Position numbers and translations under genes: made by a program
In this document: piece by piece, positions 4,019-60,240 of the stretch
How the letters are laid out: each line of letters begins with the position of its first letter
How positions within the stretch are numbered: position 1 is the stretch's first letter
Assembly (NCBI GenBank): GCA_016178505.1
Contig: JACOTG010000002.1
Span: forward strand, 1 to 64,000
DNA length: 64,000 bases
Source of the DNA: Planctomycetota bacterium
GTDB lineage: Bacteria > Planctomycetota > JACOTG01
Reading direction: 5' to 3'
The notes under the pieces: generated by a model
Told to the model about the DNA's origin: nothing
The model's input: only the letters and a program-made list of their open reading frames with translations
The model's database searches: none

Positions 4019-4031
4019 TCGCGTCCCACCG

Positions 4032-7164: not shown

Positions 7165-7171
7165 CGATTCA

Positions 7172-7319
7172 CGATTCTCTAACGGACCTCATTGGTGGCT
7201 CATGCTTATTCGCACGCCGAGTCGACCACCCGATGGCCCCTTTTCCCTAACGACCCGCATTGCTCGTCGATGGTCATTCGCACGCCGACTTCACCATCGT
7301 ATAGCCCCTATTCCCTGAC
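7172..7319 (-). repeat. Tandem imperfect direct repeat, period 68 bp, about 2.2 copies
   Basis: On the minus strand three copies start at 7319, 7251 and 7183 with the core GTYAGRGAAWMG followed by GGGGCYAT; the third is cut off by the argE start. Copies 1 and 2 also share TCGGCGTGCGAAT and CAATG. Copy 1 carries the last ArgB codons, so a duplication starting at the argB 3' end is likely. This is the only sizeable gap inside the otherwise overlapping argC-argH part of the operon. Confidence 0.7.
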
Positions 7320-37814: not shown

Positions 37815-37874
37815 TCGAGCGTCGTCGAACACGAATCGCGCCCGCGTCGGAAACGACCACGGCAGTCCAAGGCG

Positions 37875-38435: not shown

Positions 38436-38513
38436 TTGGAGTTCCCTCGAATGCGCGCCGTCAGGACGATGGATTCTCGATCAGGGATCATGGATCGGCC
38501 ACCCGGCCGAACC

Positions 38514-38519
38514 TAGAAT
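38514..38519 (+). promoter_or_regulatory. -10 box (TAGAAT) of the MBL-fold hydrolase gene
   Basis: TAGAAT nine bases before the ATG at 38528, with no ribosome site between; probable near-leaderless transcript. No good -35 box. Confidence 0.4.
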
Positions 38520-38527
38520 GCCCCGCA

Positions 38528-39163: not shown

Positions 39164-39204
39164 ACATCGATCTGTGACGCGGGCATCGGATCCGCGATCG
39201 AGAT

Positions 39205-39978: not shown

Positions 39979-40065
39979 GATTGCCTCCTCGTCCCGTGGG
40001 GTTCCGCGACCGGTCGGCGATTGTGATCGTCCGCCAACCCTGCGTCAATCGCGCTGGATTCGACG

Positions 40066-43475: not shown

Positions 43476-43547
43476 CGCGAACGTCATCCGGGTGACGAGC
43501 GGCAACGTCTATCGAATCCGTGTCGCGTGACGCCCTCGCTCTCGGCG

Positions 43548-44909
43548 TCAGCCTCCGCCCGCGCCGAGGCCACCGCCGAAGTCGAGCGGCGAGACGGGTG
43601 AGCGCGCCGTTCGTTCGACGCCGGCCTCGGCAAAAGGGCGAAGCCGAAGCGTCAGGATCGCCGCCAGCAACAGGAAGAGGGCGCCAAACCCCGCGTCGCA
43701 AAGCGCCGACAAGGCGAGAAGGGTCCGCTCAGCGAATAGGGGTTCTTTCGTGAGAGCGATCAATCCGAACGCTGCAAGTCCGGCGATCGTCCATGATCGG
43801 CGCGACGGCTCGACGCCGCGCGGTCGCAGGATGAACCCGCCCGCAACCATGTAGACCCAGATCAGCGAGATCAGGTGCGCCTTGCGTGTTTCCGGCGACA
43901 CCAGGTGAACCGTGAGGATCACCGCCGCGATCTCGAGCGGGAGCCGCAGCGGATCGTCGCGCCGCGTTCGCGAGAACAGGCCGAAGAGGAGCAGCGCGAC
44001 GATTGCAACGTTGAGCACGAGGATGGCCCGCGACACGTCGGCCGATGGCCAGTCGGTCACGTTGACGAAGAGGTCACCATAGCGCTCCGAGGTCGCGGTC
44101 CGCGCCTGGAGCAGGTGACGCAGGAACGCGGTCGTCGAGATCCCCGGCGAGTAACCGACGCCCGCCTCGTAGTTGGAGAACATCTGCGATCCACGTGAGA
44201 GCCACTGGCGCGTCAGCTCCCAGTGGCGCACCGGACCGAGCACGATCGAAGGCACGATGAATCCGAAGATCGCGAGCCCGACGAACGCTCCGCCGACCGC
44301 TTTCCAACGCCGGCGCAGCGCCAGATACGGGACGAGCGCGAGGGGGGTGTACTTGATCGTCGCCGCGAGCCCGATCGCGACACCGGCGAGCCCGTCGCGC
44401 TTGCCGTCGTAACGGCAGATCCAGTACGCCCCGAGAATCTCGAAGAAGAAGTTCGTGACGTTGACCTGCCCCGTTTTCAAGTTGTGAACGAGGAGGTTCG
44501 ACACCGCCGCGACGACGAGGATCGCCCACCACGACGCGCCGCCTCGCGGGAACACCACGCGATACGCCATCCAAAACGCGCCGGCGATGTACGCGACGTT
44601 GATCGCATACCAGAAGAACCCGGCGACGCTGACCGGCAATGACCCGAACGGCGCCATCCAGATCGCGAATAACGGGTGGTACTTGAAGCCGAGATCGGGA
44701 GCGGCGGGTCCGTAGATTGCATTGCCGGTCACGAGGTTTCGCCCCCCGTACCAGTAGCGCGTGAAGTCGGTGTCGTCGGCGTTGTGAACGGCTTGGATGC
44801 AGACGATGACGACGGCGATCACGATGCCCGCTGCCGCCGCAATACCAAGCCGCTTGCGGAATGCAGCATCGTCCCATCGCCGTCGAAGTCCGTCGACGAA
44901 CGCGCTCAA
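43548..44909 (-). CDS. GT87-like (DUF2029) membrane mannosyltransferase-type protein
   Basis: 453 residues from TTG 44909, which overlaps the upstream gene's TGA (TTGA 44906-44909) and has GAGGAG upstream. About ten helices. The first extracytoplasmic loop has DDTDFTRYWYGGRNL, and LKTGQVNV and YHPLFAIWMAP are typical of DUF2029/GT87 polyprenol-phosphate-sugar transferases. The C-terminus ends in a Gly-rich tail. Transcribed against the ArnT-like genes with the lipoprotein gene. Sugar and acceptor unknown. Confidence 0.75.
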   Translation of the reverse strand: MSAFVDGLRRRWDDAAFRKRLGIAAAAGIVIAVVIVCIQAVHNADDTDFTRYWYGGRNLVTGNAIYGPAAPDLGFKYHPLFAIWMAPFGSLPVSVAGFFWYAINVAYIAGAFWMAYRVVFPRGGASWWAILVVAAVSNLLVHNLKTGQVNVTNFFFEILGAYWICRYDGKRDGLAGVAIGLAATIKYTPLALVPYLALRRRWKAVGGAFVGLAIFGFIVPSIVLGPVRHWELTRQWLSRGSQMFSNYEAGVGYSPGISTTAFLRHLLQARTATSERYGDLFVNVTDWPSADVSRAILVLNVAIVALLLFGLFSRTRRDDPLRLPLEIAAVILTVHLVSPETRKAHLISLIWVYMVAGGFILRPRGVEPSRRSWTIAGLAAFGLIALTKEPLFAERTLLALSALCDAGFGALFLLLAAILTLRLRPFAEAGVERTARSPVSPLDFGGGLGAGGG

Positions 44910-46270
44910 GGCCGAGACTCCTCGAGAAGACCGTGGCGTCGAGCCATCCAGTACGCCAGAAGATAATCGACGCCCGCGTACTCCTGGTCCCCTTCGGCGT
45001 CGAGATCTCCGTCCAGCTCGTACGGATCGCTCTTCCAATACATGCTCGACATTGGTCGCTGGTTGATGGGAAGCGCAACCGCCGACTTCGGCTTGCCTTT
45101 CCGATTGGTCCACGCCGAGAGGGGCACGTCGGCGCGGCCGCGGTTGTCGACCGGCAAGACTCGCTTCGTCTCCGGGAAGAGTCGCAGCGTCTCGCGGATG
45201 TCGGCGAGAGTATCGGGCTCCTCACGGCGAAGCGCACAGTGGATCGACGCGAAGAGAGCGTTGTGCTCGCCGCTGACGGCCTCCCAGATGCCGTCGATCC
45301 CTCGCTCGATGGGAGCCCGGACCTCAGGCTCGGTCTCGAGCCGAAGCACGGTGTAGTAGCTCAGAAACGACATCATGTCGTTCGAGTGGTTCGTCTTGCC
45401 GAACGCCTCGAACTTCGCGTGCGCGCACGCCTCGGGATAGCGCTCGCGAACGAGACGCAAATGTCGCGACTCGATCGCCGCGTCCCCCGTCGCGTGCGCC
45501 GCCGAAGAGAAGATCGCGAGTGCGATCAGTGCATTCGGGCCGAGCGGCACGGGCCCTATCCACGCCTCGAGCCCGGCGTACGTCGTCGCCTTGCCGTGCG
45601 CGTCGCGAATGACGAGGTCGTTCCGATCGAGGAAGTGCGCGATCTCGCCGAGGTCGCGCCGAATCGCGTCGCGCGTGTCGCCTGCGGGCAGGAGGTCGTA
45701 CGCGGTCGCGTATCCGAACGCGACGCCGCAGTACTGGTCCTTGCTCACGTCGCCTTTGACCCAGTAACGATCGTACGGCGGTGCGGCGCGAGACCAAACG
45801 CCCTGGTCGCCTCGAATCGCCGCTTCGTCGGGCTCCGGGTCGATGGTGCGCGCGAGCAATCCCGGCACGCCCGTTACGCGCTGGAGGAGCGCGAGCCCAT
45901 CGACCAGGCGAGCCGCACAGTCGAGCGCGTCGCGATCTCCGGTGACCGACCAGCGAAGGGCCTCGGCGGCGAGTGCGCAACCGGTCCAGTATGCGGCATC
46001 TGCGAGATTGCCGTAGTGTCGTGGTCGCTCGCTTCGCTCTCGGAGCCGAATGGAGTACAGCACGACTCCCTCGGGCGCGACGTGACGCTCCCAAAGCTCT
46101 CGCTCGAAGAGATCCGCCTTTTCGGCGAGCGTCAACTTCCCCGGCCGATACTCGCGACGAACGACCGAAGGCGAATCTCGAATCGGGGGCGGCTGCGTCG
46201 TGTCACACGCGAGCCCGAGCAACGCAAGTGCGCAGCACGCTAGCGTCGATTCGCGTCGAATTCCTCGCAA
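44906..46270 (-). CDS. Lipoprotein with probable helical-barrel domain, unknown function
   Basis: About 454 residues from TTG 46270, chosen because GGAG lies upstream and a signal sequence with a lipobox (LLGLAC) then begins at once; an upstream ATG would add 36 charged residues. The mature part is rich in Trp/Tyr and helical segments (YWTGCALAAEAL, YGYATAYDLL, NHSNDMMSFLSYY), resembling alpha/alpha-barrel carbohydrate-active proteins, but I see no catalytic signature I can name. Coupled to the GT87-like gene. Confidence 0.6.
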   Translation of the reverse strand: MRGIRRESTLACCALALLGLACDTTQPPPIRDSPSVVRREYRPGKLTLAEKADLFERELWERHVAPEGVVLYSIRLRERSERPRHYGNLADAAYWTGCALAAEALRWSVTGDRDALDCAARLVDGLALLQRVTGVPGLLARTIDPEPDEAAIRGDQGVWSRAAPPYDRYWVKGDVSKDQYCGVAFGYATAYDLLPAGDTRDAIRRDLGEIAHFLDRNDLVIRDAHGKATTYAGLEAWIGPVPLGPNALIALAIFSSAAHATGDAAIESRHLRLVRERYPEACAHAKFEAFGKTNHSNDMMSFLSYYTVLRLETEPEVRAPIERGIDGIWEAVSGEHNALFASIHCALRREEPDTLADIRETLRLFPETKRVLPVDNRGRADVPLSAWTNRKGKPKSAVALPINQRPMSSMYWKSDPYELDGDLDAEGDQEYAGVDYLLAYWMARRHGLLEESRP

Positions 46271-46404
46271 GCCCGCGTCTCCGTTCGTCGACTCTCGATG
46301 AGCACGTGAACGTCTCCCAACGACGCAACGGGATTCTACTCGCCCGCGAGCGTGACGTGGGAAATCGATGGCGATCACTCGGCTCGATTCCTAGACTCCC
46401 TGCG

Positions 46405-48012
46405 ATGATCGTGAATCGTCGAGCCCTTCTCGGCGTCGGCGGCGTGCTCGTCCTCGCGGCGATCCTGTTCTTCACCGCGTTGGGACGGCGCGGTTTCTGG
46501 GAACCTGATGAGCCGACCTTCCCGGCGGTCGCGCAAGAGATGCGGGCGGCCAACGAGTGGGTGTTGCCGCTTCTCAACGGTGGGCTCTATTCCGAGAAGC
46601 CGATCCTCAATTACTGGTTGATGCTCGCGAGCGCGCGCGTGTTCGGAAGGCTCGACGAATGGACGGCGCGCTTGCCGGCAGCGCTCCTCGGCGTGCTCGG
46701 CGTCTGCCTCACGTGGATCCTCGGTCGCCGATTGTTTGGCGAGCGCGCAGGAATCCTCGGTGCGCTCGTCATCGCGCTGACACCGCTCTGGTTCCAGATG
46801 TCGCGGTTCGCGTACACGGACGGACCGTTCGCCGTCTTCGTTCTCGCAAGCCTCGTTCTCTTCCATCGCGGATGGTCGGACGAACACCGGCGCGGCGTCT
46901 CCTACGCGCTCGCCTGGTTGGCGCTCGGTCTCGCCGTCCTCACGAAGGGACCGCTCGCGCTCGTACTCGTGGGCCTCACCGTCGTCACGTTTCTCGCGAT
47001 CGTCCGAGACGTGCGCCACCTGTTGCGCTTCGACTTCCTCGTCGGAGTCCTGCTCTTCGCAGCGATCGTCGTACCGTGGTACGTGATCGCTTGCCATCGC
47101 GGCGGTCCCCAGTTCACCGAGGACCTGCTCGTCCGTCAGAACTTCGGTCGATTTTCCGGCGAGACAGACAGCCACCGCCAACCGCCGTGGTTCTACCTCG
47201 GCACCCTGCCCGTCGACTTGTTCCCGTGGAGTCTCTTTCTGCCCGGCGCGGTCTGGCAGCTCGCTCGAGAGTGGCGCTCGGGCGGGCGGCGACGCGAGGC
47301 CGCATTTCTCGTCGCAGCGACGGTGCCGGCGTTTCTGTTCCTTTCGATCACGAGCTCCAAGCAAGGCAAGTACCTGTTGCCGATCTACCCGATGATCGCG
47401 ATCGCCATCGGTGCACACCTCGACTCCGTCGCCGCGCGGTGGCGCGCCGGTGCGACACTGCTGGCCGGAGGCACACTCGCCTTGGCAGGGATCGCCGGTG
47501 CGCTCTTCGCCGCAGGAGTTGGGCGCGTGCCCTACGACGAATTCCGGCCGATCGCCGCGATCGCCGCCGTCATCGCACTCGCGGGCGGTATCGCGATTCT
47601 CGCGCTCGTCCGGGCTCGCCGGCATCTCGGCGCGACGCTGGCGCTCGCAGCCGCCGTCGGTGGGATCTTCTTCGTCCTCGACGTCGCGGTCTTCCCGACG
47701 CTCGATCCCTACAAGTCCCCGAAGCCGCTCTGCGACCGCATCGTCGCGCGACTCGGCGGTGCGCCCGAGTTCGCGATCTACGGCAACTACCGCGAAGGGT
47801 TTTCCTACTACACGCGCCGGCACATCGTCGAGCTAAAGCAAGAGAGCGCCCTCGCGAGCTACCTCGACCGCCCCGAACGCGCGTTCGTCGTCATGCGTGA
47901 CGAAGCGTGGTCCAAGCTCCCGCCGACTTTGACTCGACGCCTTCAGCTCCTCGCCGAGGGCGACGTCGGGAGCAAGTCGTACGTTTTTCTCGGGAGGCTC
48001 GATACGCCATGA
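46405..48012 (+). CDS. ArnT/PMT-like glycosyltransferase, copy 3
   Basis: 535 residues. First loop EPDEPTFPAVAQEMR, then YSEKPILNYWL, RFAYTDGPF, LTKGPLALV and SSKQGKYLLPIYP: the GT39/GT83 pattern with the acidic pair kept. The start is ATG 46405, eight bases after TAGACT, so the transcript leader is short. The C-terminal soluble tail includes NYREGFSYYTRRHIVEL, similar to copy 2. The stop overlaps the copy 4 ATG. Confidence 0.82.
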   Translation: MIVNRRALLGVGGVLVLAAILFFTALGRRGFWEPDEPTFPAVAQEMRAANEWVLPLLNGGLYSEKPILNYWLMLASARVFGRLDEWTARLPAALLGVLGVCLTWILGRRLFGERAGILGALVIALTPLWFQMSRFAYTDGPFAVFVLASLVLFHRGWSDEHRRGVSYALAWLALGLAVLTKGPLALVLVGLTVVTFLAIVRDVRHLLRFDFLVGVLLFAAIVVPWYVIACHRGGPQFTEDLLVRQNFGRFSGETDSHRQPPWFYLGTLPVDLFPWSLFLPGAVWQLAREWRSGGRRREAAFLVAATVPAFLFLSITSSKQGKYLLPIYPMIAIAIGAHLDSVAARWRAGATLLAGGTLALAGIAGALFAAGVGRVPYDEFRPIAAIAAVIALAGGIAILALVRARRHLGATLALAAAVGGIFFVLDVAVFPTLDPYKSPKPLCDRIVARLGGAPEFAIYGNYREGFSYYTRRHIVELKQESALASYLDRPERAFVVMRDEAWSKLPPTLTRRLQLLAEGDVGSKSYVFLGRLDTP

Positions 48013-49667
48013 CCGGACGATCGCGCGGATTTCTCGTCTTGTTGGCTGCGCTGCTGGTTGCGTTTTGGATTTATGGGGGCACGCGACCGCTCGACAACAC
48101 CGACGAAGGACGCGATGCCCAGATCACGCGCGAGATGCTCGACAGCGGTGATTGGGTGCTCCCGCACCTGAATGGAAAGCCGCTACCGTGGAAGCCGATG
48201 CTCTACCACTGGGTGTCGGGAATTGCGTCGATTCCGGCGGGCCACGTCAGCGAGCTGACTGCGGCATTGCCCTCGATCCTCGCCGCGATCCTCTGCGCGC
48301 TCTTGACCTTCGATATGGCGAAGCGCCTGTTCGGTTCGCGGCGTGCGGGACTCGTGGCAGCCGCAGCGCTTCTCACCTCGAGTCAGTTCCTCGTCAAGAG
48401 CGTGTCGGCGCAGTACGACATGACGCTTACCGGGTTCACGACGCTCGCGATTTGGGCGTTCTGGCGGTCGACGTGCGCGCGGTCGTCCGGCACATCGCTC
48501 GGCTTCTCGCTACTCTTCTACGCCGCGATGGGATTGGGAACGATCACGAAGGGTCCGGTCGGCATCCTCGTCCCCGGAATCGTCGCCGTCGGATACCTCT
48601 GGCTGAGGCGCGACTGGTTCGGGATCTTTCGCACGTCTCCGTGGTTCGGAGTGCCACTCCTCCTGGCGGTCGCGGTGCCCTGGTACTGGGCTACCTACGT
48701 CCGCGGCGGGAAGGAGTTCTTCGACGAGATCTTCTGGCACCAGAACTTCACGAGATTCACGAACGCGTTCGACCACGCCGCTGGGCCGCACTACTACTTC
48801 ATCCAATTCACCGGCGGCTCGCTGCCGTGGAGCCCCCTTGCGATCGCCGCGATCCCGTTTCTGTTCCTGCGCACTCGAGGCAAGTGGCGGATTCGACGGC
48901 GATCGAGAGCCCTGTTTCCTCTCGCTTGGTTCGTCATCGTCTTTGCATTCTTCACGGCGTCGACGAGCAAGCGCCCGAACTACATCCTTCCTCTCTATCC
49001 GGCGGCAGCCTTGCTCGCCGCGGGTTTCGTCGAGGCCGTACTCCGGTCGCGGCACTCGGACCTGCGCGTCGTTCTGCGCCGCCTCGTGACGGCGATCGGC
49101 GTTGCACTGCTCGTCGCATTCCCGGCACCCGTCGTCGCCGCGTTCGTCCAGGACCGTGAACGAACGATCGGCGAGGCGCTCGCCGTCGGCCTGCCGGGGA
49201 CCCTCGCGCTCATCGCGTCAGGCGTTGCGGTCGTTGCGTTCGCTCGCCGCGATCGGCTCGGCCGCGCCGTCGCCTCGATCGCCCTCGCGTCCGCGGCCTT
49301 GCACGTGGTGGGGCTGTTCACCTTGATCGCCTCGCCCGACGGCCCATTTCACGCCCGCGCTTTCGCCGAGCGTGCGCGACACGAAGTAGGAGCCGTTGCG
49401 ACGATCGGCTTCTTCAACACGTTCTCGCCCGGGATCCTCTACTACCTGGGTGAGCCGATTCCCGTCGACGACTTCCAAGGGGCGAACGCAACGGATCAGC
49501 TCGTCTCGAAGCTCGTGCAACGGGGACAACCGATCCACCTCATCCTCAAGAAGAAGAACGAGGCGACGGATTGGCCGGACCGCGATCGAGTCCAGCTCAC
49601 GCCGCTGTTCACCCGCCGCGTCGGATCGCACGAACTCACGCTCGGACGCGCCACTCTCGCGCGTTGA
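48009..49667 (+). CDS. ArnT/PMT-like glycosyltransferase, copy 4
   Basis: 552 residues from ATG 48009 (ATGA overlap with copy 3). First loop NTDEGRDAQITREML retains the Asp-Glu pair, followed by WKPMLYHWV, SAQYDMTLTGF, ITKGPVGIL and STSKRPNYILPLYP. Polytopic with a periplasmic C-terminal tail. Probably acts on an undecaprenyl-linked sugar; specificity versus the other copies unknown. Confidence 0.82.
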   Translation: MTGRSRGFLVLLAALLVAFWIYGGTRPLDNTDEGRDAQITREMLDSGDWVLPHLNGKPLPWKPMLYHWVSGIASIPAGHVSELTAALPSILAAILCALLTFDMAKRLFGSRRAGLVAAAALLTSSQFLVKSVSAQYDMTLTGFTTLAIWAFWRSTCARSSGTSLGFSLLFYAAMGLGTITKGPVGILVPGIVAVGYLWLRRDWFGIFRTSPWFGVPLLLAVAVPWYWATYVRGGKEFFDEIFWHQNFTRFTNAFDHAAGPHYYFIQFTGGSLPWSPLAIAAIPFLFLRTRGKWRIRRRSRALFPLAWFVIVFAFFTASTSKRPNYILPLYPAAALLAAGFVEAVLRSRHSDLRVVLRRLVTAIGVALLVAFPAPVVAAFVQDRERTIGEALAVGLPGTLALIASGVAVVAFARRDRLGRAVASIALASAALHVVGLFTLIASPDGPFHARAFAERARHEVGAVATIGFFNTFSPGILYYLGEPIPVDDFQGANATDQLVSKLVQRGQPIHLILKKKNEATDWPDRDRVQLTPLFTRRVGSHELTLGRATLAR

Positions 49668-49770: not shown

Positions 49771-50670
49771 ATGAACCGACGGCAATGGCTCGCAACGACA
49801 ATCGTCCTCGGCTCTGCCCTCCTCCTCGGAATCGCAACGCGGCCCGCGTCGCCGTCGGAGCCCAAGGCCGACGCGCCCGCAGGGATCCGAGTCTTCCACT
49901 TCGGCGTTTACACGAGCGAGAAAGCGACGGAGATGTACACGACGTTCGCGCCGATCCTGGAAACGGCTGCTGACTTTCTTTCCACGACGCTGAAGAGTCG
50001 AATCGACTTCGAAATCGAGGTCGGTCGCAACTACGACGCCTCGATCCAGGATCTCGCCGGAGGCAAGGTCGACTTCGCGCGTTTCGGTCCGGCGTCCTAC
50101 ATCACCGCAAAATCGATGGAGCCGGGCCTCCAGATCGTGGCCATGGAAGTGAAAGACGGCCAGAAGACGTTCGACGGCGTCGTCGTCACCAAGAAGTCGA
50201 GTCCGATCCAATCCCTGGCCGACCTCAAGGGAAAGACGTTCGCGTTCGGAGACAAGAACTCGACGATCGGACGCTACCTCGCTCAAGAAGCGCTCGCGAA
50301 GGCGGGCGTTCATCGCAAGGATCTCGCGAAGTCCGAGTACATCGATCGGCACGACAGGGTCGCGAGCGCCGTCCTCCACGCGGAATTCGACGCCGGCGCC
50401 GTCAAGGAAGACACCTATCTGAAGATGAAAGAGAAGGACGAAGGACTTCGCGAGATCGCGCGGCTCAGAAACGTCACGAAGCCGTGGCTCGCGCGACGGG
50501 GCCTCGATCCGGCGATCATCGAAGGACTGCGCGCGTTCCTCCTGCAGTACAAGGACCAAACGGCTCTCAAGCGTCTCGAAGGCATGACCGGATTCGCGGT
50601 CGGCGACGACGCCGACTTCGATTCGATTCGAGCGGCGATGTCCGCGTCCGAACTCTTCGATCGCGAATGA
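49771..50670 (+). CDS. PhnD-like phosphate/phosphonate-binding periplasmic protein
   Basis: 299 residues with an N-terminal signal sequence (MNRRQWLATTIVLG). Type II periplasmic-binding fold: DFARFGPASYITA, GVVVTKKSSPIQSLADLKGKTFAFGDKNST and HAEFDAGAVKEDTY match PhnD/phosphite-binding proteins. No ABC permease or ATPase follows. A histidine kinase starts 24 bases downstream, so the protein more likely feeds a signal to the sensor than serves uptake. GAGGTG precedes the ATG. Confidence 0.85.
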   Translation: MNRRQWLATTIVLGSALLLGIATRPASPSEPKADAPAGIRVFHFGVYTSEKATEMYTTFAPILETAADFLSTTLKSRIDFEIEVGRNYDASIQDLAGGKVDFARFGPASYITAKSMEPGLQIVAMEVKDGQKTFDGVVVTKKSSPIQSLADLKGKTFAFGDKNSTIGRYLAQEALAKAGVHRKDLAKSEYIDRHDRVASAVLHAEFDAGAVKEDTYLKMKEKDEGLREIARLRNVTKPWLARRGLDPAIIEGLRAFLLQYKDQTALKRLEGMTGFAVGDDADFDSIRAAMSASELFDRE

Positions 50671-50694: not shown

Positions 50695-52626
50695 ATGGAC
50701 TGGCGACACGGAATCCAGACACGAATCACGGCGATCACGCTCGTGATCTCGCTCGTCGCCGTCGGCGCGTCCGGCTACGCCTTGCTCGCCACCGAGCGAG
50801 CCAACTTCGACGAGGAGACGCGAAAGCGCGGCGAGGCCGTCGCGCAAACGCTAGGGCGCGCGAGCTTGGAAGCCATCGTCAAGAAGGACTGGCCGGTCCT
50901 CGAATCGAACCTCGAATTCACGGGCAATGCCGACCCAGACGTCGCGTTCATCCGCGTGCTGGTCGGGAGCCGCGAAGTCGCTCGATTCCGGCGGGCGCTG
51001 GTCGCCGACTCGTCCGGCCAGGAACCGATCCTCACGATCAGCACGCCCGCTCGAATCGAAGGCCGAGAGCTGGCAACCTTCGAGTTGGGCTTCGACCTGC
51101 GACGAGCGCGGGCGCTGATCTTCCGGCGCTCCGTCTTCCTGGCGCTCGGCGTTCTCGCGACGCTCGTCCTCCTTTCGGTCGTGATCTCCCTCGCGCTTCG
51201 TCGCGTCGTCGTCCGCCCTCTTCAAGGGTTGTGCGCGTTCGCCGAAGCGGTCGAAGGCGGCAACCTCGGCGCACGAGTCACGCATCTCTCCGACGACGAA
51301 ACCGGACTTCTCGGACGCAAGCTGAACTCGATGGCAACGAGCCTGAAGACGCGAAGCCGCGAGGTGGAGCGCGCGCGACGTCTCCTCGAACAGCGAAATC
51401 GCGAATTGGCGAAGAAGATCGAGGAGCTGCGTCGGGCGAATCAGGCGAAGAGCAACTTCCTTGCATCCATGTCGCACGAGCTACGCACGCCGTTGAACGG
51501 AATCCTCGGGTTCATCGACCTCATTCGCGGCGGATTCGCATCGGGCGAAGCCGAAGCGCAGGAGTTCCTCGCAAACGCGCGCCAGAGCGGCCTCCACCTC
51601 CTCACGCTCATCGAGGATCTTCTGGACCTATCTAGAATCGAAGCCGGCCAAGTCGCGATCCAAGCCGAACGGGTCGACCCCGTCGAGATCGTCAACTCGG
51701 CGTGCATCGAGTCGGCATCGACGGCGAGCACCAAAGGTCTCAGCCTTCGGACTGACGTTGCCCCGAACGCGCAACCCGTGCTCGCGGATCGTCAACGACT
51801 TCGCCAAGTGCTGCTGCACCTCCTCTCCAACGCCGTGAAGTTCACCGACGAAGGCTCGATCGTGGTGCGGGTCAGCGCACCCCCGGGGCAAGACCACGTG
51901 CTCTTCGAGGTCGAGGACACCGGCAACGGCATTCCACCGGAGCAGCGAGCGACGGTGTTCGAGAAGTTCCTTCAGCTCGACCAAGGAACCACGCGGAAAC
52001 ACGGCGGCTCGGGTCTCGGTCTCGCGATCTCGAAGAACCTCGTCGAGCGCATGGGTGGGCGCATCTGGATCGACGGCGCGCGCGAGGGCAAGGGAACGCG
52101 CGTGCGCTTCACGATTCCGGTGCATGCCATCGACGTTTCACCGGCCCCGCCCGACACGGAGCCCCGTGATCGCCCGCTCGTCCTCGTCGTCGAGAACGAC
52201 TCCTCGACCCGCTCCCTCGTGCGAACAGCGTTGCGCAAGGCAGGACACCGCGTCGCCGAGGCAATCGATGCAGACGGTGCGGTGAAGCTGGCGCGCGGAA
52301 TCGTCCCCGATCTCGTGCTGCTCGACGTTGGACTTCCGAGCCGCGCGGACGCGACCTATCGAGACGGCATCCAGGCGTACGCTGCGCTGCAGCGCGACCC
52401 GATCACGGCAAGCATCCCGATCGTCCTCCTGACGGCCCACGACATCGCACAAATCCCTTCTGCAAAGTCTGCGTGGCCGAAAGAAAAAGCGCCTCGGATC
52501 TTGCGAAAGCCCGTGCCGATTTCAGTGCTTCTCGAGGCCGTCGACGAGTCCGTCGGAACGTACGGAAACCGTGCGCCTCTCCGAACGACGACGAGCTCCC
52601 CGCATGGCGAGGCCGAAGTCGCCTAG
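50695..52626 (+). CDS. Hybrid sensor histidine kinase with C-terminal receiver domain
   Basis: 643 residues. TM1 about 12-32, periplasmic sensor of about 110 residues, TM2 about 145-168, HAMP 168-220, coiled coil, HisKA with H261 in SMSHELRTPLN, HATPase with DTGNGIPPE and GGSGLGLAISKNL, then a receiver around 505-620 with ENDSSTR, phospho-acceptor LLDVGLP and a late Lys-Pro. It should autophosphorylate and pass phosphate internally; no DNA-binding partner is adjacent. The upstream PhnD-like gene probably supplies the ligand sensor. Confidence 0.92.
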   Translation: MDWRHGIQTRITAITLVISLVAVGASGYALLATERANFDEETRKRGEAVAQTLGRASLEAIVKKDWPVLESNLEFTGNADPDVAFIRVLVGSREVARFRRALVADSSGQEPILTISTPARIEGRELATFELGFDLRRARALIFRRSVFLALGVLATLVLLSVVISLALRRVVVRPLQGLCAFAEAVEGGNLGARVTHLSDDETGLLGRKLNSMATSLKTRSREVERARRLLEQRNRELAKKIEELRRANQAKSNFLASMSHELRTPLNGILGFIDLIRGGFASGEAEAQEFLANARQSGLHLLTLIEDLLDLSRIEAGQVAIQAERVDPVEIVNSACIESASTASTKGLSLRTDVAPNAQPVLADRQRLRQVLLHLLSNAVKFTDEGSIVVRVSAPPGQDHVLFEVEDTGNGIPPEQRATVFEKFLQLDQGTTRKHGGSGLGLAISKNLVERMGGRIWIDGAREGKGTRVRFTIPVHAIDVSPAPPDTEPRDRPLVLVVENDSSTRSLVRTALRKAGHRVAEAIDADGAVKLARGIVPDLVLLDVGLPSRADATYRDGIQAYAALQRDPITASIPIVLLTAHDIAQIPSAKSAWPKEKAPRILRKPVPISVLLEAVDESVGTYGNRAPLRTTTSSPHGEAEVA

Positions 52627-55600
52627 CCCTCGCAGAACTCGAGCGCCGCGAGCGCACCTTCGGCACCATTCCGGCGCACGACTCGTGCGCGTCTGACGGC
52701 TCCAGGAGCCAGCGCCCCGTCGACTGCCGTCGACGCACTGACTTCGATGAGGATCCCGTCCGGAATCGACGCGTCCGCTTCCACGAGCAGGCCCGAACGG
52801 CTCGCATTGCGCGCTCGCGCAACGAACGCACGATCGCCGGCGCGGATCTCCACCGGAGCGTCGCACGCCGTCCGCGGCATTCGACGCCGTTCGGCGCCGA
52901 CGAGCGTCACCACGCCGTCCGTCTCCAGCCGAACGAGATCGCCGTTCTTCACGGCCGACAGCATGCCCGGCACGCCGAACACCGCAGGCAAGTCGTACTC
53001 GCGCGCGACGATCGCCGCGTGGCAGAGCGCCCCTCCCATCTCGGTGACGACGCCGGCAGCCAACGGATAGAAGAGCGCCAGCGAAGCGTCCGCGGTCGGC
53101 GAAACGAGAATGTCACCGCGGCGCACGTTCGCCCGGTCCTCGTTGGTCTCGATTCGGCGCACGGGCCCGACGACCTCGGACGATCCGGCGACCCACGTTC
53201 CCGCGAGCTTGGAGCCATCGCCCGGGGCCGTCGTCGGCTTGCGCCTTGCTTCGAGCGCCTCGATCGCTTCGATGTCCAGCGCCTCATCGAGCGTCAGCCT
53301 CTCGAAGCATCGGCGCTCCGCGCGTCGCGCCTCGATCGCGGGCGGCCAGATCGCGCACTCGCTCGAGCAGGCCGCGATGGACTCCTCGAGCGTCAACAGG
53401 AACACGTCGTCGCCGATGCCAAGCCGCGTTCCCATCTCGAGCAACGTCTTCCGGATCTCGGCGACTTCGCGCAGGAACTCGTGCTTCGTGAACTCCTTCA
53501 AGGGTTCGTACGTCTCGAGAGCCTGGAGATCCGCTCGAAAGCGACGTTCCTTTCGCGGAGTCAGCCCGAGAGTTGCCACGTCTCGGACGTCATGCCGCCG
53601 CGCCGGCTCGCGTCCCGCCCGGCGCCGAGCCTCGAGTGCGGCCAGGAGCACGCCCGGATTCTCCCGGTGCCGGGGTTCGGCAAGCTCCCACTCCACCACC
53701 GCGCGATGACCGTACTCGGCGATCGCGTCGTCGATTCCGAGCCCGTCCATCGGAGCGGGTGCGGCCGCAATGAACGACGAAATCGGAACGGACTTGTCGC
53801 GCAAGACCGCCGAGACTCGGCCATAGGCGTGAGCCGCGACGAGGTTGACGATCTCCGCCTCCGCATAGGCCTCCCCCACGAACGTTGCTACCTGCTCGTC
53901 GAGCAGAGCCGCGAGATCGGTAGCAGGAAGGCGCGTCCGGTCGATCGCGGCCAGCCGTCGCACGCGCGCACGAAGCGCCGGGACGAGTTCGTTCGTCAGG
54001 CGATCCGCGGCACGACCGCGCTCGCGCAGAATACGACGTTCCGCGGTGGCAATACGCACGAGGTCGAGCGCACCTCGAGTCGGATACTGGCGCGCTTGCA
54101 TCGCCAAATCCTCGAACAGCCAGCCAAACGCGGTGACGACCGTTTCCTCCACTGGAACCGCCGAATCGAACGGAATGCTCATGCGCTCTGCCGCGATCGC
54201 GGCCGCTCCGTTCGCGCCGCGCAGACGCCGAAGCAGCGACAAGCTCGCCGGCGTCGGGAACGGAAGCTGCGCGCCGAGGTCGCCGCGACGCAGGCCGCGG
54301 AACGCTCTCCCGGCCGCGCGCGCGCGGTCGGAGAGTCGCGCCTTTTCGAACGCGATGAACCCCTCTTCCTCGCTGCCCCGGATCGTGGCCGTGATGGGAC
54401 GAGCCTGGAGGATCCAAAACTTCCCCGCCGCAAACGCCCACTCGATGTCTTGGGGCGCACCGAACACGTCCTCGAGCGCGATCACTCGATCGACCAGCGG
54501 CCCGAGGTCGATCGGTGGCGCGGGTCCGTTCGCGATGCGGCGACGGGATACGCGGCCGAATGAAGAGTGAACCGGGTTTCGCGACCCGTCGACGAGACCG
54601 ACGCCGAGTCCGTTCACGAGTTCGATCGAGAGACGCGAACCGTCTTTCGGGTCGCGGCTGAACGCAACCCCGGCGAATTCGGCCGGCACCATCGCTTGAA
54701 CGAGAACGCAGCAGCCGGCGCTTCGGCCTTTGTACGCCGCCGCACGTCCCGAGTCCGACGTGAGCGACGCGGCGACCTGGCGAACGGCGTCGACGATCCC
54801 GTTCCGCTCGACTCCGAGCACCGTGTCGAACAATCCGGCAAAGCTCTGCTCGGCGCCATCCTCGCCGATCGCGGAACTGCGCACGGCCACGCGATCAGCG
54901 CGGAGACGATCGAAGTGTTCGAGAATTGCCCGCTGTGCCGCCTCGTCGAAGCCGCGTTCGAAGAACTTTGTGGTCAACACGAAGCCCGGCGGCACCGCGA
55001 ATCCGGCACGCGCGAGGATCGACTCGTTCATCGCCTTGCCGCCGATGCCCGAGAACTTCCACGCGTCGCGAAGGGCGACGATCGGGACCGGCTCGATCAG
55101 CGCGCGTGGATGCGAAGTTCGGCCGAAGAACGCAATCTCGAGTGCAGCGAGCAAGAGGTTGACCGAGAGATAGAGACCCACGGCAGCCGAAAGCGGGCGA
55201 GCCACCGCGACGACGGCGACGCAGACGGCGATGCTGATTACCGCACCGACGCGTCGCTTCATCCGCCCCGTGAGCCACAGCTGCGAGAGGAACCCGAAGC
55301 CGGCCACGACGGGCAAGACGGAGAGCGGATCGGGTTTCGACAGATCGTCGATCCACCCGTGCACGAACGGTGCACCGACGAGATCCCTCGTGGTGGCGAG
55401 GAATGTGCCGAGCGCGATGAAAGCAACGAGCTGCAGCGCCGTGAACGCAAGTCCAGGGAGAATCGAAACGGCGTCCTTGCGGCCGCTTGCCTCGAGTCGG
55501 CGCGTGTTGCGAGCGGACGCGCGAGACAACGGGAGCAGGAGCAGCCGAATCGCAAACACGATCAGCAGGATCGCGCCCCCGAACCCGCCTCCGAACTTCG

Positions 55601-56729
55601 CGAGCTTCACGAACGCCGGCGAGAACGAGGCCGTCCACGGAATCGACGGAGGCTCCGGCGCGGGCTCCACGAACTCGTACGGCACCGTGTAGCGGCCGAG
55701 GTAGGAGTATCCGTTCGCCGCGAGCTTCGAACCGATGATCTTCGAATAGAACGAACTTCGCCGGTCGTAGCACGCGGTGATGTAGCGTCGATCGTGCGGC
55801 AGCGCGCGGACGCGCGCCATCAAGTCCGTGGACACGAGCCGGCGCGCCGTGATCTGCACCGCGCCCGGCAAGTGACCGGCGTTGAACTCGGCGTCGTAGC
55901 GAACGTCCAGGAACGTGACGCCGCCTTTCTTCCACTCGGCGGTCACCCGTTCGGTGTCGAGGAGCGTGTCCCGGTTCGGGTACTCGGGAACCTGACGAAT
56001 GTCGTCCGTGAGATGCGACTCGTCCATTGGTCGCTTCTCGTTGAACCACTTCTCGTACCCGCCGACCAAGAAGCGGCACTGAAGCCCGTGCTCGAGAAAC
56101 TCCTCGACCAACTCGCCGCTGCGATTGCCCGAGTAACACAGCAGGATGACCGGCTTCTTCGAATTTCGAATCAACGACGCATCCGCTTGGATGTCGGGGT
56201 AGCGGACGTGGATCGTCCCTGGGATGCGACCCATGGCGAATTCCTCGTCTTCGCGCACGTCGATGAGCAACGGCGGATCTCCCGAGTCGATCAACTTCTG
56301 GAGGGCTTCCGTCGAGATCGCGTGTGGATGAACGAGCTGCTTCTCGAGCGGCATCTCTTTGAGGGAGATGTCGTGGACCTCGGTGCCGTCCTGCTTCGAT
56401 TTCCGCGCGAGGTTCACCGAGAGGTGGCGGGCACGCTCATCACGGGCCGCTGACCACTGAAGCAAGTTGACGGCGAGCGACACGAAGAGGAGTGCGCACG
56501 CCGTCGCCAGGAGCTTTCGGGATGCGGTTCCGCCACGCTTTCCAGCCCGCGTCCCTCCCCTTCCGAACACGACCGCTCCGATCCCGGCGAGGACGACGGC
56601 GCCCACCTGCGCCAGGCCAGCGAACGCGTTCAGAAGAACGTCAGGCGGAGGAATCGCGTGCGCACGTGCGCACGGCAGAAGAAGGGTAGCGACAGAGACC
56701 GTCAAGACGGTCCGTGTGCGGCACCGCAT
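52623..56729 (-). CDS. Rhodanese-rhodanese-YidC-like-PEP-synthase-like-PilZ fusion protein
   Basis: 1368 residues in one frame, AGAGGAG before ATG 56729. Order: signal/TM region to about 95; rhodanese 1 about 135-235 with Cys198 in LLCYSGNRSG; rhodanese 2 about 250-350 with Cys320; five membrane segments about 380-540 whose IVFAIRLLLLPLS and WIDDLSKPDPLSVLPVV resemble YidC/Oxa1; PEP-synthase/PPDK ATP-grasp domain about 555-780 (GIGGKAMNE, VRSSAIGEDG, DIEWAFAAGKFWILQARPI); a helical linker; phosphohistidine domain with H1237 in GGALCHAAIVARE; PilZ about 1280-1368 with RRRMPR and NASRSG, the c-di-GMP motifs. The reaction is not known; a membrane-bound phosphotransferase gated by c-di-GMP is the inference. 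Confidence 0.85.
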   Translation of the reverse strand: MRCRTRTVLTVSVATLLLPCARAHAIPPPDVLLNAFAGLAQVGAVVLAGIGAVVFGRGGTRAGKRGGTASRKLLATACALLFVSLAVNLLQWSAARDERARHLSVNLARKSKQDGTEVHDISLKEMPLEKQLVHPHAISTEALQKLIDSGDPPLLIDVREDEEFAMGRIPGTIHVRYPDIQADASLIRNSKKPVILLCYSGNRSGELVEEFLEHGLQCRFLVGGYEKWFNEKRPMDESHLTDDIRQVPEYPNRDTLLDTERVTAEWKKGGVTFLDVRYDAEFNAGHLPGAVQITARRLVSTDLMARVRALPHDRRYITACYDRRSSFYSKIIGSKLAANGYSYLGRYTVPYEFVEPAPEPPSIPWTASFSPAFVKLAKFGGGFGGAILLIVFAIRLLLLPLSRASARNTRRLEASGRKDAVSILPGLAFTALQLVAFIALGTFLATTRDLVGAPFVHGWIDDLSKPDPLSVLPVVAGFGFLSQLWLTGRMKRRVGAVISIAVCVAVVAVARPLSAAVGLYLSVNLLLAALEIAFFGRTSHPRALIEPVPIVALRDAWKFSGIGGKAMNESILARAGFAVPPGFVLTTKFFERGFDEAAQRAILEHFDRLRADRVAVRSSAIGEDGAEQSFAGLFDTVLGVERNGIVDAVRQVAASLTSDSGRAAAYKGRSAGCCVLVQAMVPAEFAGVAFSRDPKDGSRLSIELVNGLGVGLVDGSRNPVHSSFGRVSRRRIANGPAPPIDLGPLVDRVIALEDVFGAPQDIEWAFAAGKFWILQARPITATIRGSEEEGFIAFEKARLSDRARAAGRAFRGLRRGDLGAQLPFPTPASLSLLRRLRGANGAAAIAAERMSIPFDSAVPVEETVVTAFGWLFEDLAMQARQYPTRGALDLVRIATAERRILRERGRAADRLTNELVPALRARVRRLAAIDRTRLPATDLAALLDEQVATFVGEAYAEAEIVNLVAAHAYGRVSAVLRDKSVPISSFIAAAPAPMDGLGIDDAIAEYGHRAVVEWELAEPRHRENPGVLLAALEARRRAGREPARRHDVRDVATLGLTPRKERRFRADLQALETYEPLKEFTKHEFLREVAEIRKTLLEMGTRLGIGDDVFLLTLEESIAACSSECAIWPPAIEARRAERRCFERLTLDEALDIEAIEALEARRKPTTAPGDGSKLAGTWVAGSSEVVGPVRRIETNEDRANVRRGDILVSPTADASLALFYPLAAGVVTEMGGALCHAAIVAREYDLPAVFGVPGMLSAVKNGDLVRLETDGVVTLVGAERRRMPRTACDAPVEIRAGDRAFVARARNASRSGLLVEADASIPDGILIEVSASTAVDGALAPGAVRRARVVRRNGAEGALAALEFCEG

Positions 56730-57214
56730 GCCCGAAGCTCCTCTGGGGTGATCTCGGCACGGACCCTCGGAGCCGCCTGATTTGTCGTCAGGCAGCAGGG
56801 TCAGATCGTGCGAGCTCGACGTCTCCAGAAGGCGTTTCGCGCAGCCGAACTCGGACGCCGGTCTAGTCCAGGCTTGGCGAAGGTACGGGTCGGTACTCGA
56901 TCAACGCCCCGACGCGCGGATCCCGACCTTTGACGCGCCCTCAGCAAGTATCCCGATCACGAAGACTGCGAGTCTCTCCAAGACAGCGTCGCACGTTACC
57001 AGGGTGCAAACAGAAGTCAACAGTTCACCGATTCCGTGCCACTAACGCGATGCCACCGCCGCCGAAGGACGCCGGCGTCGCCGCGCTTCGACCTCCAGCA
57101 ACCTCTCGAATGCGTTCTCGTCAACGACCGCGCAACCGGCTATAATCCGACCCTTTGCATTCCCGGTCCCCGAGGCGGAGCGGGCACCGGAACTTCCCTG
57201 AGGAGGCTTCTCGA
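56730..57214. other. Intergenic region upstream of the Ara4N operon
   Basis: 485 bases with no credible gene. It contains a small GCCTGA/TCAGGC hairpin at 56775-56793, the arnB promoter at 57118-57146, and a leader ending in AGGAGG. Confidence 0.6.
57118..57146 (+). promoter_or_regulatory. Promoter of the Ara4N operon
   Basis: TCGTCA at 57118-57123, 17-bp spacer, perfect TATAAT at 57141-57146. Transcription start near 57153 gives a leader of about 60 bases with AGGAGG before ATG 57215. No PmrA/PhoP-type direct repeats were recognised upstream. Confidence 0.6.
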
Positions 57215-58411
57215 ATGCCGACCCCGGAGCCGACGACGTCGGCCACGCCCGTTCGCGAAGTGTTCCTGCCGTTCGCCAAGCCCGTGCTCGGTGAGGAGGA
57301 AATCGCGGAAGTCGTCGACAGCCTGCGATCCGGCTGGCTGACGACGGGCCCGAAAGTCCAGAAGCTCGAGGAGGCCTTCCGCGCCTATACCGGCGCCCAC
57401 CACGCGATCGCCATTTCGTCGTGCACGGCCGCGCTTCACGTCGCGTACGCGGCGCTGGGAATCGGGCCGAACGACGAAATCGTCACGACGCCGATGACGT
57501 TCTCGGCGACCACGAACATGGCCGTAGTGCTCGGTGCGCGGCCGGTCTTCGTGGACATCGACCGCCACACCCTCAACATCGACGTCGAGCGCATCGAAGC
57601 CGCGATCACTCCGCGCACGAAGGCGATCGTCCCCGTTCATTTCGCCGGACAGCCCGTCGATCTCGACGGAGTGCACGAGATCGCGCGACGGCGCGGGGTC
57701 GCCGTGGTCGAGGACGCGGCTCACGCGATCGGGACGGAATACAAGGGCCGGCGCATCGGTGCGCTCTCGCAGATCACCTGCTTCTCTTTCCACCCCAACA
57801 AGAACGTCACGACCGGCGAAGGCGGACTCCTCACGACCGACGATTCGGGCCTCGCCGAGACGCTCATTCAGCTTCGGTTTCACGGTCTCGACAAGGACGC
57901 GTGGCGCCGGTTCACTCCCGGCGGAAACCCGCTCCCCACGCTCGTGCGACCGGGCTTCAAATACAACATGATGGACATTCAAGCAGCGATCGGGATCCAC
58001 CAGCTTCCGCGCCTCGAGGGCTTCATCAAGAAACGCACGACGCTCGCTGAGCGTTACCGGCGCGCGCTCGCGGAAGTCCCGGAGCTCCTGCTTCCGGAGT
58101 CGATGCCGTTCCCCCACCGGCACGCGTGGCATCTCTTCGCCGTGCTTCTCGACACGGATCGCGCGAAGATGGATCGCAACGAATTCATGTCACGCCTGAA
58201 GGCCGAGAACATCGGGACAGGAGTGCACTACACCGCCGTTCACCTCTTCCCCTGGTATCAGGAGAATCTCGGCGTTCGCCGAGGCGACTTCCCGAATGCC
58301 GAGTTCGTGAGTGATCGCATCTTGTCGCTGCCGCTCTGGCCCGGCATGGAAGCGCCCGACGTCGACGACGTCGTGGCTGCGATCAAGAGGGTACTCGGGA
58401 GGAAGCGGTGA
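57215..58411 (+). CDS. arnB: UDP-4-keto-pentose aminotransferase, ArnB-like (DegT/DnrJ/EryC1)
   Basis: 398 residues. PLP-dependent sugar aminotransferase with FSATTNMAVVLGARPVFVDID, VVEDAAHAIG (D167) and the Schiff-base lysine K196 in FHPNKNVTTGEGG. In the ArnB role it converts UDP-4-keto-arabinose to UDP-Ara4N. The assignment rests on the following arnC-, arnA- and arnD-like genes. AGGAGG is 8 bases before the ATG. The stop overlaps the GTG of the next gene. Confidence 0.9.
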   Translation: MPTPEPTTSATPVREVFLPFAKPVLGEEEIAEVVDSLRSGWLTTGPKVQKLEEAFRAYTGAHHAIAISSCTAALHVAYAALGIGPNDEIVTTPMTFSATTNMAVVLGARPVFVDIDRHTLNIDVERIEAAITPRTKAIVPVHFAGQPVDLDGVHEIARRRGVAVVEDAAHAIGTEYKGRRIGALSQITCFSFHPNKNVTTGEGGLLTTDDSGLAETLIQLRFHGLDKDAWRRFTPGGNPLPTLVRPGFKYNMMDIQAAIGIHQLPRLEGFIKKRTTLAERYRRALAEVPELLLPESMPFPHRHAWHLFAVLLDTDRAKMDRNEFMSRLKAENIGTGVHYTAVHLFPWYQENLGVRRGDFPNAEFVSDRILSLPLWPGMEAPDVDDVVAAIKRVLGRKR

Positions 58412-60240
58412 GCGCCGCGCGGAAGCGGCCGGCGGTCTCCACGGTCGTCCCCGTCTTCAACGAGGAAGCGAACCTGCCGGCGCTGTTTCAGCGGCTCAGC
58501 TCGACTCTCGACAAGATCGGCGTCGACTACGAGATGATCTTCGTCGACGACGGCTCGAGCGATCGCTCACTCGAACTGCTCGACGAGTTCGCGCGCCAAA
58601 ACGATCGAGTCGTCGTGGTCGAGTTCGTGCGCAATTTCGGCCAGCATGCGGCCGTTTTCGCCGGCTTCGAACGCGCGCGCGGGCAAGTCGTCGTGACGCT
58701 CGACGCGGATCTGCAGAACCCGCCGGAAGAGATACCGAAGCTCCTCGCAAAGATCGCCGAGGGCTACGACGTGGTGGGCGGCTGGCGCGCGGAGCGACAC
58801 GACTCCGTGCTTCGAAAGCTCCCGAGCAAGATCGTGAACCGCGTCATGTCGAAGGTGACCGGCGTGAAGCTCAACGACTACGGGTGCATGCTGCGCGCGT
58901 ACCGCCGGCCGGTCGTCAAGAGCATCTGCAAGTGCAACGAGATCTCGTCGTTCATCCCGGCGCTCGCGAACACGTTTGCCAAGCAAGGCAAGGTGTGTGA
59001 GGTGCCCGTCGATCATGCGGAGCGCGCGGCCGGCACGTCGAAGTACGGGCTCTTGAAGCTCATCAACCTGAACTTCGATCTGGTCACCGGCTTCTCGCGG
59101 CTGCCGCTCAAGATGACGACACTCCTCGGCGTGATCATCGCTCTCTTCGCGTTTGCGCTCGGCGCCTACATCATCATCATGCGAATCTTGCGGGGCGAGA
59201 GCTGGGCGCAGTTCGGAGTGTTCACGCTCTTCGCCGTTCAGTTCTTCCTCGTGGGGATGCTCTTCGTCTTCATGGGGCTCATGGGCGAGTACGTGGGCCG
59301 CATCTACAGTGAAGTGCGTCGTCGTCCCCGCTACGTGATTCGAAAGATCCATCGGTTTCGGTTTCAGTCCGGGACCGAAGGCCACGCCTGCCTGAGCGAA
59401 CTCCTCGGGCTCGGTGAGGAGGTGGTCGGGGTCGTCACGCACCACGACGACCCCGGCGAGGAAATCTACTTTCGCTCGGTCGGTGACCTGGCCGAGCGTC
59501 GGGGGATTCCCTGCTTTCGGCCGGACGATGCCAACGAGCCCACGTTCGTCGAGAGGCTTCGCGCGCTCCGGCCGGACATCATCTATTCCTTCTACTACCG
59601 CCGCCTCCTCGACGACCCGATCCTCGCGCTCGCGCCGAAGGGCGCGCTGAACCTGCATGGATCGCTCCTCCCCAAGTATCGGGGGCGATGCCCCGCGAAC
59701 TGGGTGATCATCCATGGGGAGTCGCGAACGGGAGTCACGTTGCACTACATGACGCGACGCGCGGACGCGGGCGACGTCGTCGCGCAAGAGGTGGTGCCGA
59801 TCGCTCCACGCGAGACCGCACTGACGCTCATGGGCAAGCTCGAAGCGGCGGCAGTCGTGCTCCTCCGCCGCACCGTGCCGCTCCTTCGCACCGGCACGGC
59901 ACCGCGCGTTCCGCAGGATTCGACGCAGGTCACGACCTTCGGCGGGCGTCGGCCGGAGGACGGCAGAATCGATTGGTCGCAATCCGCGGTCGCGATCGAC
60001 CGGCTCGTCCGAGCTGTCACGCATCCTTATCCGGGCGCCTTCACCATCGCGGGTGAAAAGAAGATCCTCGTGTGGGAGTCGCTGCCGCTGCCGCCGCGTT
60101 CGGGCGCCCGTCCGCTTCGCCCCGGTGAGTGGTCGGGCGACGTCGTTGGAACGGGCGACGGGCTCCTGCGAATCGTCCGCTGCCAACTCGAAGGTGAACG
60201 CGAGACGTCTGGACTGCAGCTCGCCGCGGAGGCGTCATGA
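58408..60240 (+). CDS. ArnC glycosyltransferase fused to an ArnA-type formyltransferase
   Basis: 610 residues from GTG 58408 (GTGA overlap; GGAGG upstream). Residues 1-310 are ArnC/DPMS-like: VPVFNEEANL, FVDDGSSD, TLDADLQNPPEE, two C-terminal helices (about 235-260, 270-295). Residues about 315-610 match the ArnA N-terminal formyltransferase: THHDDPGE, FSFYYRRLL, NLHGSLLPKYRGR, RADAG. N415, H417 and D453 have the same spacing as E. coli ArnA N102, H104 and D140. It should N-formylate UDP-Ara4N and attach it to undecaprenyl phosphate. In enterobacteria the formyltransferase is instead fused to the dehydrogenase. The first formyltransferase strand at the junction is diverged. Confidence 0.88.
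   Translation: MSAARKRPAVSTVVPVFNEEANLPALFQRLSSTLDKIGVDYEMIFVDDGSSDRSLELLDEFARQNDRVVVVEFVRNFGQHAAVFAGFERARGQVVVTLDADLQNPPEEIPKLLAKIAEGYDVVGGWRAERHDSVLRKLPSKIVNRVMSKVTGVKLNDYGCMLRAYRRPVVKSICKCNEISSFIPALANTFAKQGKVCEVPVDHAERAAGTSKYGLLKLINLNFDLVTGFSRLPLKMTTLLGVIIALFAFALGAYIIIMRILRGESWAQFGVFTLFAVQFFLVGMLFVFMGLMGEYVGRIYSEVRRRPRYVIRKIHRFRFQSGTEGHACLSELLGLGEEVVGVVTHHDDPGEEIYFRSVGDLAERRGIPCFRPDDANEPTFVERLRALRPDIIYSFYYRRLLDDPILALAPKGALNLHGSLLPKYRGRCPANWVIIHGESRTGVTLHYMTRRADAGDVVAQEVVPIAPRETALTLMGKLEAAAVVLLRRTVPLLRTGTAPRVPQDSTQVTTFGGRRPEDGRIDWSQSAVAIDRLVRAVTHPYPGAFTIAGEKKILVWESLPLPPRSGARPLRPGEWSGDVVGTGDGLLRIVRCQLEGERETSGLQLAAEAS

Follow-up and report, generated by a model that had tools for sequence, protein, structure and literature searches.

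Tandem rhodaneses, a YidC-type membrane core and a dikinase of the rifampin phosphotransferase type joined in one bacterial protein family, usually encoded beside a periplasmic binding protein and a signal transducer

What might a single bacterial protein do that carries two rhodanese domains, a YidC-like membrane block, an ATP-grasp plus phosphohistidine pair and a PilZ domain? The question is raised by the window analyzed here, a stretch of 64,000 nucleotides from the Planctomycetota bacterium assembly GCA_016178505.1 (contig JACOTG010000002.1, positions 1 to 64,000, forward strand), in which an earlier note made from the sequence alone had drawn attention to one 1368-residue frame with this combination of parts at 52623–56729. 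The frame is as that note described it and lies on the minus strand: an ATG start behind a plausible GAGGAG-like site is followed by 1368 codons in one frame, and Pfam finds along the product (P0001) two Rhodanese domains, 60KD_IMP (YidC), a PPDK_N ATP-grasp domain, a phosphohistidine swivel domain and PilZ, in that order. The same order is common to P0001 and 23 relatives in several bacterial groups, including members on finished roseobacter plasmids, and in 19 of 23 loci the enzyme gene has genes for a binding protein and a transducer as neighbors. Our preferred reading, to which we give a probability of about 0.45, is that these proteins are two-sided membrane enzymes under the control of an oxyanion sensor, which would handle sulfane sulfur outside the membrane and phosphorylate a small molecule inside it.

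The earlier note had proposed that the distribution of the architecture be determined, and had named as findings that would tell against it a mis-joined frame, or a membrane block unrelated to YidC together with an unconserved histidine. Full-length relatives are found in Hyphomicrobium, Granulosicoccaceae, a Rhodoferax bin and roseobacter plasmids and megaplasmids (matches at ≥80% coverage in 25 plasmid records), where the current annotation is only “PEP/pyruvate-binding domain-containing protein”. Carriers are sparse: 11 of 392 genomes of the window’s own phylum (the window genome included) and, in the classes to which the Hyphomicrobium and Rhodoferax loci belong, 2 of 385 and 4 of 369, respectively. 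Identity to P0001 is 31–33% across the first aligned set and 36% for the nearest relative (aligned parts). The architecture is kept in the 22 proteins, several from finished replicons, that were aligned for residue conservation, and the histidine is invariant (H1237, 21/21 of those reaching that position); C198 is present in 22/22, C320 in 20/22 and R395 in 22/22. Inspection of P0001 showed that Cys198, Cys320 and H1237 had been placed correctly in the note, and although the window member has the longest branch of the enzyme tree, every key residue checked is still kept there. In closely related pairs each domain with an estimable dS has a dN far smaller than that dS, so all the domains tested are under purifying selection. 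The window genome, a draft assembly of 313 contigs, has no second copy of the gene. Its draft state is what would favor an artefact of mis-joined sequence; the occurrence of the same domain order in independent assemblies and finished plasmids, together with the purifying selection, rules this out for practical purposes, and we give it next to no weight.

The part of the system that was absent from the earlier note is the sensor pair, which on the evidence of gene neighborhoods is conserved with the enzyme. In the window it consists of a PhnD/PtxB-type binding protein, predicted to be periplasmic (49771–50670, plus strand; PF12974, 4.6e-54), and a HAMP-HisKA-HATPase-REC hybrid histidine kinase (50695–52626, plus strand; domains from Pfam), whose gene is convergent with the enzyme gene and overlaps it by 4 bp. 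In the 19 loci the genes may be divergent, convergent or co-directional. The transducer is a HAMP-PAS-GGDEF-EAL protein in three loci (L025, L028 and L166). Two of these, L025 and L028, also have a different type of binding protein, one resembling phosphate binders, and in the genomes G045 and G195 the pair sits elsewhere in the genome. Among the 392 genomes, the specific binding protein is present in 10 of 11 enzyme carriers and in 3 of 381 others (p = 1.5e-16), and counted by genus in 7/7 against 3/260 (p = 6.8e-12); in the eleventh carrier the binding-protein gene is cut by the contig end. Enzyme and binding-protein distances are correlated (Mantel r = 0.80, reached in 0 of 2000 permutations). 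In sequence the binding protein most resembles PtxB and PhnD, followed by ArrX and AioX, its PtxB score being far above that for AioX, and the module’s binding-protein alignment, which was made without residue-by-residue alignment to AioX, has no conserved cysteine; the ligand residue of AioX is Cys106.

Several side observations concern this pair. The Rhodoferax locus L027 has no linked sensor pair. In three enzyme-free genomes (L187, L188 and L189) the gene for the binding protein is retained beside one resembling a kinase gene, so the pair can exist alone. In G319 a 773-residue protein (L190, 6466–8787, minus strand) holds a relative of the module’s binding protein (230 bits), apparently as one of its domains, and in L024 (6110–7594, plus strand) and L165 (14582–15883, minus strand) the binding protein is extended at its C-terminus by a long segment whose end is common to both.

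How would the enzyme sit in the membrane? Hydropathy gives a signal peptide and seven helices. The signal peptide (residues 1–25; 56655–56729, minus strand, as are all parts of P0001) ends in AHA ahead of a conserved IP(S/P)PD/ELV motif, whose I26, P27 and P29 are invariant in the 22-protein alignment. Two transmembrane (TM) helices follow (residues ~37–55 and ~73–91; 56450–56621), separated by a loop that is strongly positive, with a family mean charge of +4.9, and predicted to be cytoplasmic, and the other five form the YidC/Oxa1-type core (residues 365–540; 55110–55637), where the invariant Arg395 in the first core helix is at the position of YidC’s basic residue. Mean loop charges in the family are +4.9 and +5.2 on the predicted inside loops and near zero or negative on the outside loops, and because of this pattern the rhodaneses are likely periplasmic and the dikinase likely cytoplasmic. 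Hydropathy and loop charges therefore suggest the plan of YidC, with the P1 domain replaced by two rhodanese domains and the tail extended by an enzyme.

That the membrane block is YidC/Oxa1-like, as the note had claimed and asked to have checked by alignment, is borne out. The 60KD_IMP match in P0001 itself (residues 418–531; 7.8e-8, 32.9 bits) is just under the cut-off of 35 bits, and most relatives score between 1.7e-25 and 6e-12 (L104 1.7e-25, L026 1.3e-20; L027 8e-6). A profile of the membrane segment aligns with an ordinary YidC profile over 200 columns, the whole core (hhalign probability 99.8, E = 1.7e-27), and a model of residues 300–600 picks up the ordinary YidC in most of the genomes searched as well (318 of 392 with a match at 1e-10). 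Judged by these alignments the homology is firm. Most relatives have the cytoplasmic C1 hairpin, of which the window member retains very little, and every relative’s genome that was checked has a gene for an ordinary YidC as well. Mean identity among relatives is highest in rhodanese 2 (0.50), 0.43 in the ATP-grasp domain and lowest in the YidC core (0.29), and because of this ranking the core looks more like a scaffold than an insertase.

Between the second and third TM helices lie the two rhodanese domains that the note had reported, domain 1 at residues ~138–240 (56010–56318) and domain 2 at residues ~241–352 (55674–56009), which Pfam finds as two stretches at 5e-26. Structure prediction of the first 545 residues gives a confident fold for the rhodaneses only, and a fold search with it matches sulfurtransferases. 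Rhodaneses that transfer sulfur have six-residue active-site loops, and Cdc25-type phosphatases have seven-residue loops. Both domains of P0001 have the rhodanese fold and a catalytic cysteine in a six-residue loop (CYSGNR, the start of the C198-YSGNRS stretch, and CYDRRS at C320), and since mean identity among relatives peaks in domain 2, the domains are not vestigial. The note’s more cautious suggestion that the protein perhaps moves sulfur is consistent with these intact cysteines, from which we infer sulfur transfer.

The cytosolic half resembles rifampin phosphotransferase (RPH). It comprises an ATP-grasp domain (residues 555–790; 54360–55067; PPDK_N, 2.8e-38) with K565, R617, T636, E763, Q775 and R777, an RPH-type substrate domain (residues 791–1185; 53175–54359) with an invariant K1078-E1079 and K1082, and a swivel phosphohistidine domain with His1237 (residues 1186–1275; 52905–53174; Pfam PEP-utilizers match at 1203–1268, 1.4e-17); the ATP-grasp and phosphohistidine pair of the note is thus present. 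The domain search and structure prediction it had called for recovered these parts and gave a model of the soluble half with pLDDT 82 and pTM 0.77. Its best fold matches are RPH structures (4.8e-31), with low global TM-scores (0.24–0.36) that are expected, because the domains are movable. In RPH-Lm, K22, R117 and T136 are essential for the first half-reaction, R666/E667/K670 form the network of the second step, and His825 is the phosphohistidine (PMC4844700); the corresponding P0001 residues are K565, R617, T636, K1078, E1079, K1082 and H1237. Relatives keep K565, R617 and H1237, most of them have Ser in place of the Thr at 636, and the second-step triad is invariant with Glu and Lys kept and RPH Arg666 replaced by Lys. 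The order of ATP-grasp domain, substrate domain and C-terminal swivel histidine is that of RPH-type enzymes, and the Pfam scan of P0001 found no PEP_utilizers_C barrel.

The earlier label “PEP-synthase-like” is better replaced by “RPH-like”: PEP synthase is ruled out by the missing barrel, the closer relationship to RPH and a score of 135 bits against the 740-bit cut-off of TIGR01418. P0001 likewise scores 152 bits against 999 for the curated RPH model (NF041857) and is far below the cut-offs of the RedH and PigC models. Because the barrel is absent and the PEP synthase and RPH scores are both far below cut-off, we class the cytosolic half, from its sequence and modeled fold, as an RPH-type dikinase and do not claim it as a rifampin enzyme. 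Phosphotransfer is what its residues would predict; the fold and most of the half-reaction residues support the note’s suggestion that phosphate is moved, or a substrate modified, as in RPH.

The C-terminal PilZ domain (residues 1280–1358; 52656–52892; 3.2e-5, over the Pfam cut-off) carries both motifs for cyclic di-GMP (c-di-GMP), RxxxR (RRMPR at 1282) and [D/N]xSxxG (NASRSG at 1308). In this respect the note was right for the window member and not for the family: of the 21 members whose C-terminus could be read, 9 end in a PilZ-like tail and five carry both motifs (the window, L104, L156, L158 and L167). Since PilZ is absent from most relatives, c-di-GMP acting through it is not a general control, and a family-wide control of this kind is ruled out; PilZ is optional, and all three GGDEF-EAL loci lack it. 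In the enzymes of L024 and L165 an Arg-rich tail replaces PilZ.

The sequences supply the parts, their order, the conserved residues, the gene association and the likely topology; that control runs from the sensor to the enzyme we infer. The fusion enzyme would then be the effector of a dedicated periplasmic sensor and might work as follows: the PtxB/PhnD-like protein would bind a periplasmic anion, and the signal would pass through the hybrid histidine kinase (the GGDEF-EAL protein in some relatives) to the synthesis or activity of the enzyme. Outside, the rhodaneses, held between membrane helices at the place of YidC P1, would be the sulfane sulfur carriers, with persulfides at Cys198 and Cys320. 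The YidC-derived five-helix bundle would join the two halves and may present an amphipathic substrate. Inside, the ATP-grasp domain would phosphorylate His1237, converting ATP to AMP and Pi, and the swivel domain would then move to the 390-residue substrate domain and deliver the phosphate to a small molecule, as in RPH. PilZ would add a c-di-GMP input in the window member and a minority of others.

Several points weigh against this reading. Most relatives lack PilZ, and the hybrid kinase of the window has no DNA-binding output. Neither the Mantel test nor the co-occurrence tests correct completely for shared ancestry, which contributes to the r of 0.80. In L027 (Rhodoferax, 3376–7194, plus strand) about 40 columns of the YidC core are missing, and the C320 column has no cysteine in L155, which is a short contig, or in L153, where the sequence has some ambiguous bases. 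AlphaFold gives no confident membrane part (pLDDT below 50), no sulfur-metabolism gene is a conserved neighbor of the enzyme gene, and no biochemical or genetic data for the fusion enzyme were found in the open-access literature.

Could the protein instead be a membrane-anchored resistance or detoxification kinase, which phosphorylates a membrane-permeant toxic or antibiotic-like molecule at entry while the rhodaneses bind or detoxify? RPH is the nearest relative with a solved structure, the known substrates of dikinases of its type include hydroxylated small molecules, rifampin and phenols among them (PMC4844700, PMC12167813), and the sparse distribution and plasmid presence look accessory; but the conserved oxyanion-type sensor and the top conservation of rhodanese 2 are left unexplained and no resistance genes were seen as conserved neighbors, so we consider it unlikely, though a serious candidate. 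A phosphorelay or signaling receptor, in which the dikinase donates phosphate to a protein such as the receiver of the neighboring kinase, with the rhodaneses as sensors of redox or sulfur state, would fit the PilZ of some members and the fact that the enzyme is almost always accompanied by a hybrid kinase or a GGDEF-EAL protein. It strikes us as rather improbable, since the RPH-type substrate domain and phosphate-binding residues are kept and point to a small-molecule acceptor, and the enzyme gene lacks a linked binding-protein gene in four carriers and a linked transducer gene in three.

The two sides of the membrane might also be joined more tightly. A sensor-gated coupling across it, in which periplasmic sulfane sulfur and inside phosphorylation are combined, for example in a product bearing both sulfur and phosphate, with the YidC core reused as passage or docking site and not as an insertase, is in our judgment a long shot. 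Longer still are the odds on outside sulfane sulfur crossing the membrane to form a thiophosphate-like product, comparable to selenophosphate synthesis: two active-looking rhodaneses and a dikinase of the ATP to AMP + Pi type are in one chain, and both binding-protein types resemble phosphite/phosphonate or phosphate binders, but no sulfur route through a YidC-type core is known, P0001 has no cytoplasmic sulfur carrier, and the large substrate domain suggests an organic acceptor. Slightly less credible again is a specialized YidC-type insertase with regulatory enzyme domains attached. The YidC homology is genuine and the basic residue of the first core helix invariant; however, insertase function appears unlikely because the C1 hairpin is shortened here, part of the core is missing in L027 and the core is the least conserved domain, and with a separate YidC in the relatives’ genomes a true insertase was set aside.

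Apart from the binding protein and transducer, no conserved neighbor recurs across groups around the enzyme loci. On the roseobacter plasmids only (L106–L110), the module lies beside a znuABC-type zinc uptake cluster, usually with tviB and a MurR/RpiR regulator. The window has a glycosyltransferase cluster at 35565–49667 (three PMT/ArnT-type, GT87 and GT2) that is not conserved beside the enzyme elsewhere. A 610-residue frame at 58408–60240 (plus strand) fuses a family-2 glycosyltransferase (residues 11–172, ArnC-like) to a complete formyltransferase (residues 337–606, ArnA-like); a DegT aminotransferase gene (57155–58411) is directly ahead of it, and the arrangement is possibly a fused L-Ara4N-type sugar-modification unit.

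The joined system appears to be new, and each part alone is of a known kind. As the note had supposed, no paper describing the combined system was found in the open-access literature; subscription papers were mostly outside the search, and for this reason the novelty is provisional. To our knowledge no YidC-type core has been found inside an enzyme before. If our interpretation is right, the module would be a new kind of cell-envelope sensor-effector system in which a YidC-type core is put to use within an enzyme, and it would add a membrane-tethered branch to the RPH-type dikinases; its carriers with complete replicons, Phaeobacter inhibens 2.10 and Ruegeria sp. TM1040, make it directly testable.

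Among known systems, RPH (e.g., RPH-Lm, PDB 5FBS/5HV1), HpeHI and phenylphosphate synthase share with P0001 the ATP-grasp domain, large substrate domain and C-terminal histidine swivel, and equivalents of RPH K22, R117, T/S136, E667, K670 and H825 are conserved in the fusion family. RPH is, however, soluble and about 870 residues long, whereas the module of P0001 is fused behind a membrane and periplasmic half and may be followed by PilZ; the second-step Arg666 is Lys, and identity is about 19–20%. PEP synthase and pyruvate phosphate dikinase also have the ATP-grasp and phosphohistidine swivel domains, but P0001 lacks their PEP_utilizers_C barrel, and in its enzyme part the swivel domain comes last. 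With YidC/Oxa1 proteins it shares the five-TM core, the basic residue of the first core helix, a DLS-PDP periplasmic motif, the predicted topology and a periplasmic domain between two helices ahead of the core; it differs in having two rhodaneses for P1, a C-terminus that runs into an enzyme and a reduced C1 hairpin. Tandem-domain sulfurtransferases (Francisella 6MXV, P. aeruginosa 1YT8) likewise have two or more rhodanese folds in a row, but P0001 keeps both cysteines and its pair is inserted in a membrane protein, in a predicted periplasmic position. AioX with AioS is the known precedent for pairing a PhnD-fold binding protein with a sensor kinase, and the AioX/ArxX/ArrX-S-R arsenic systems, like the module, combine such a protein and a sensor kinase with an effector enzyme next to them (PMC5908839); in the module the binding protein is closer to PtxB, the hybrid kinase comes without a DNA-binding regulator, and the effector is not a molybdoenzyme.

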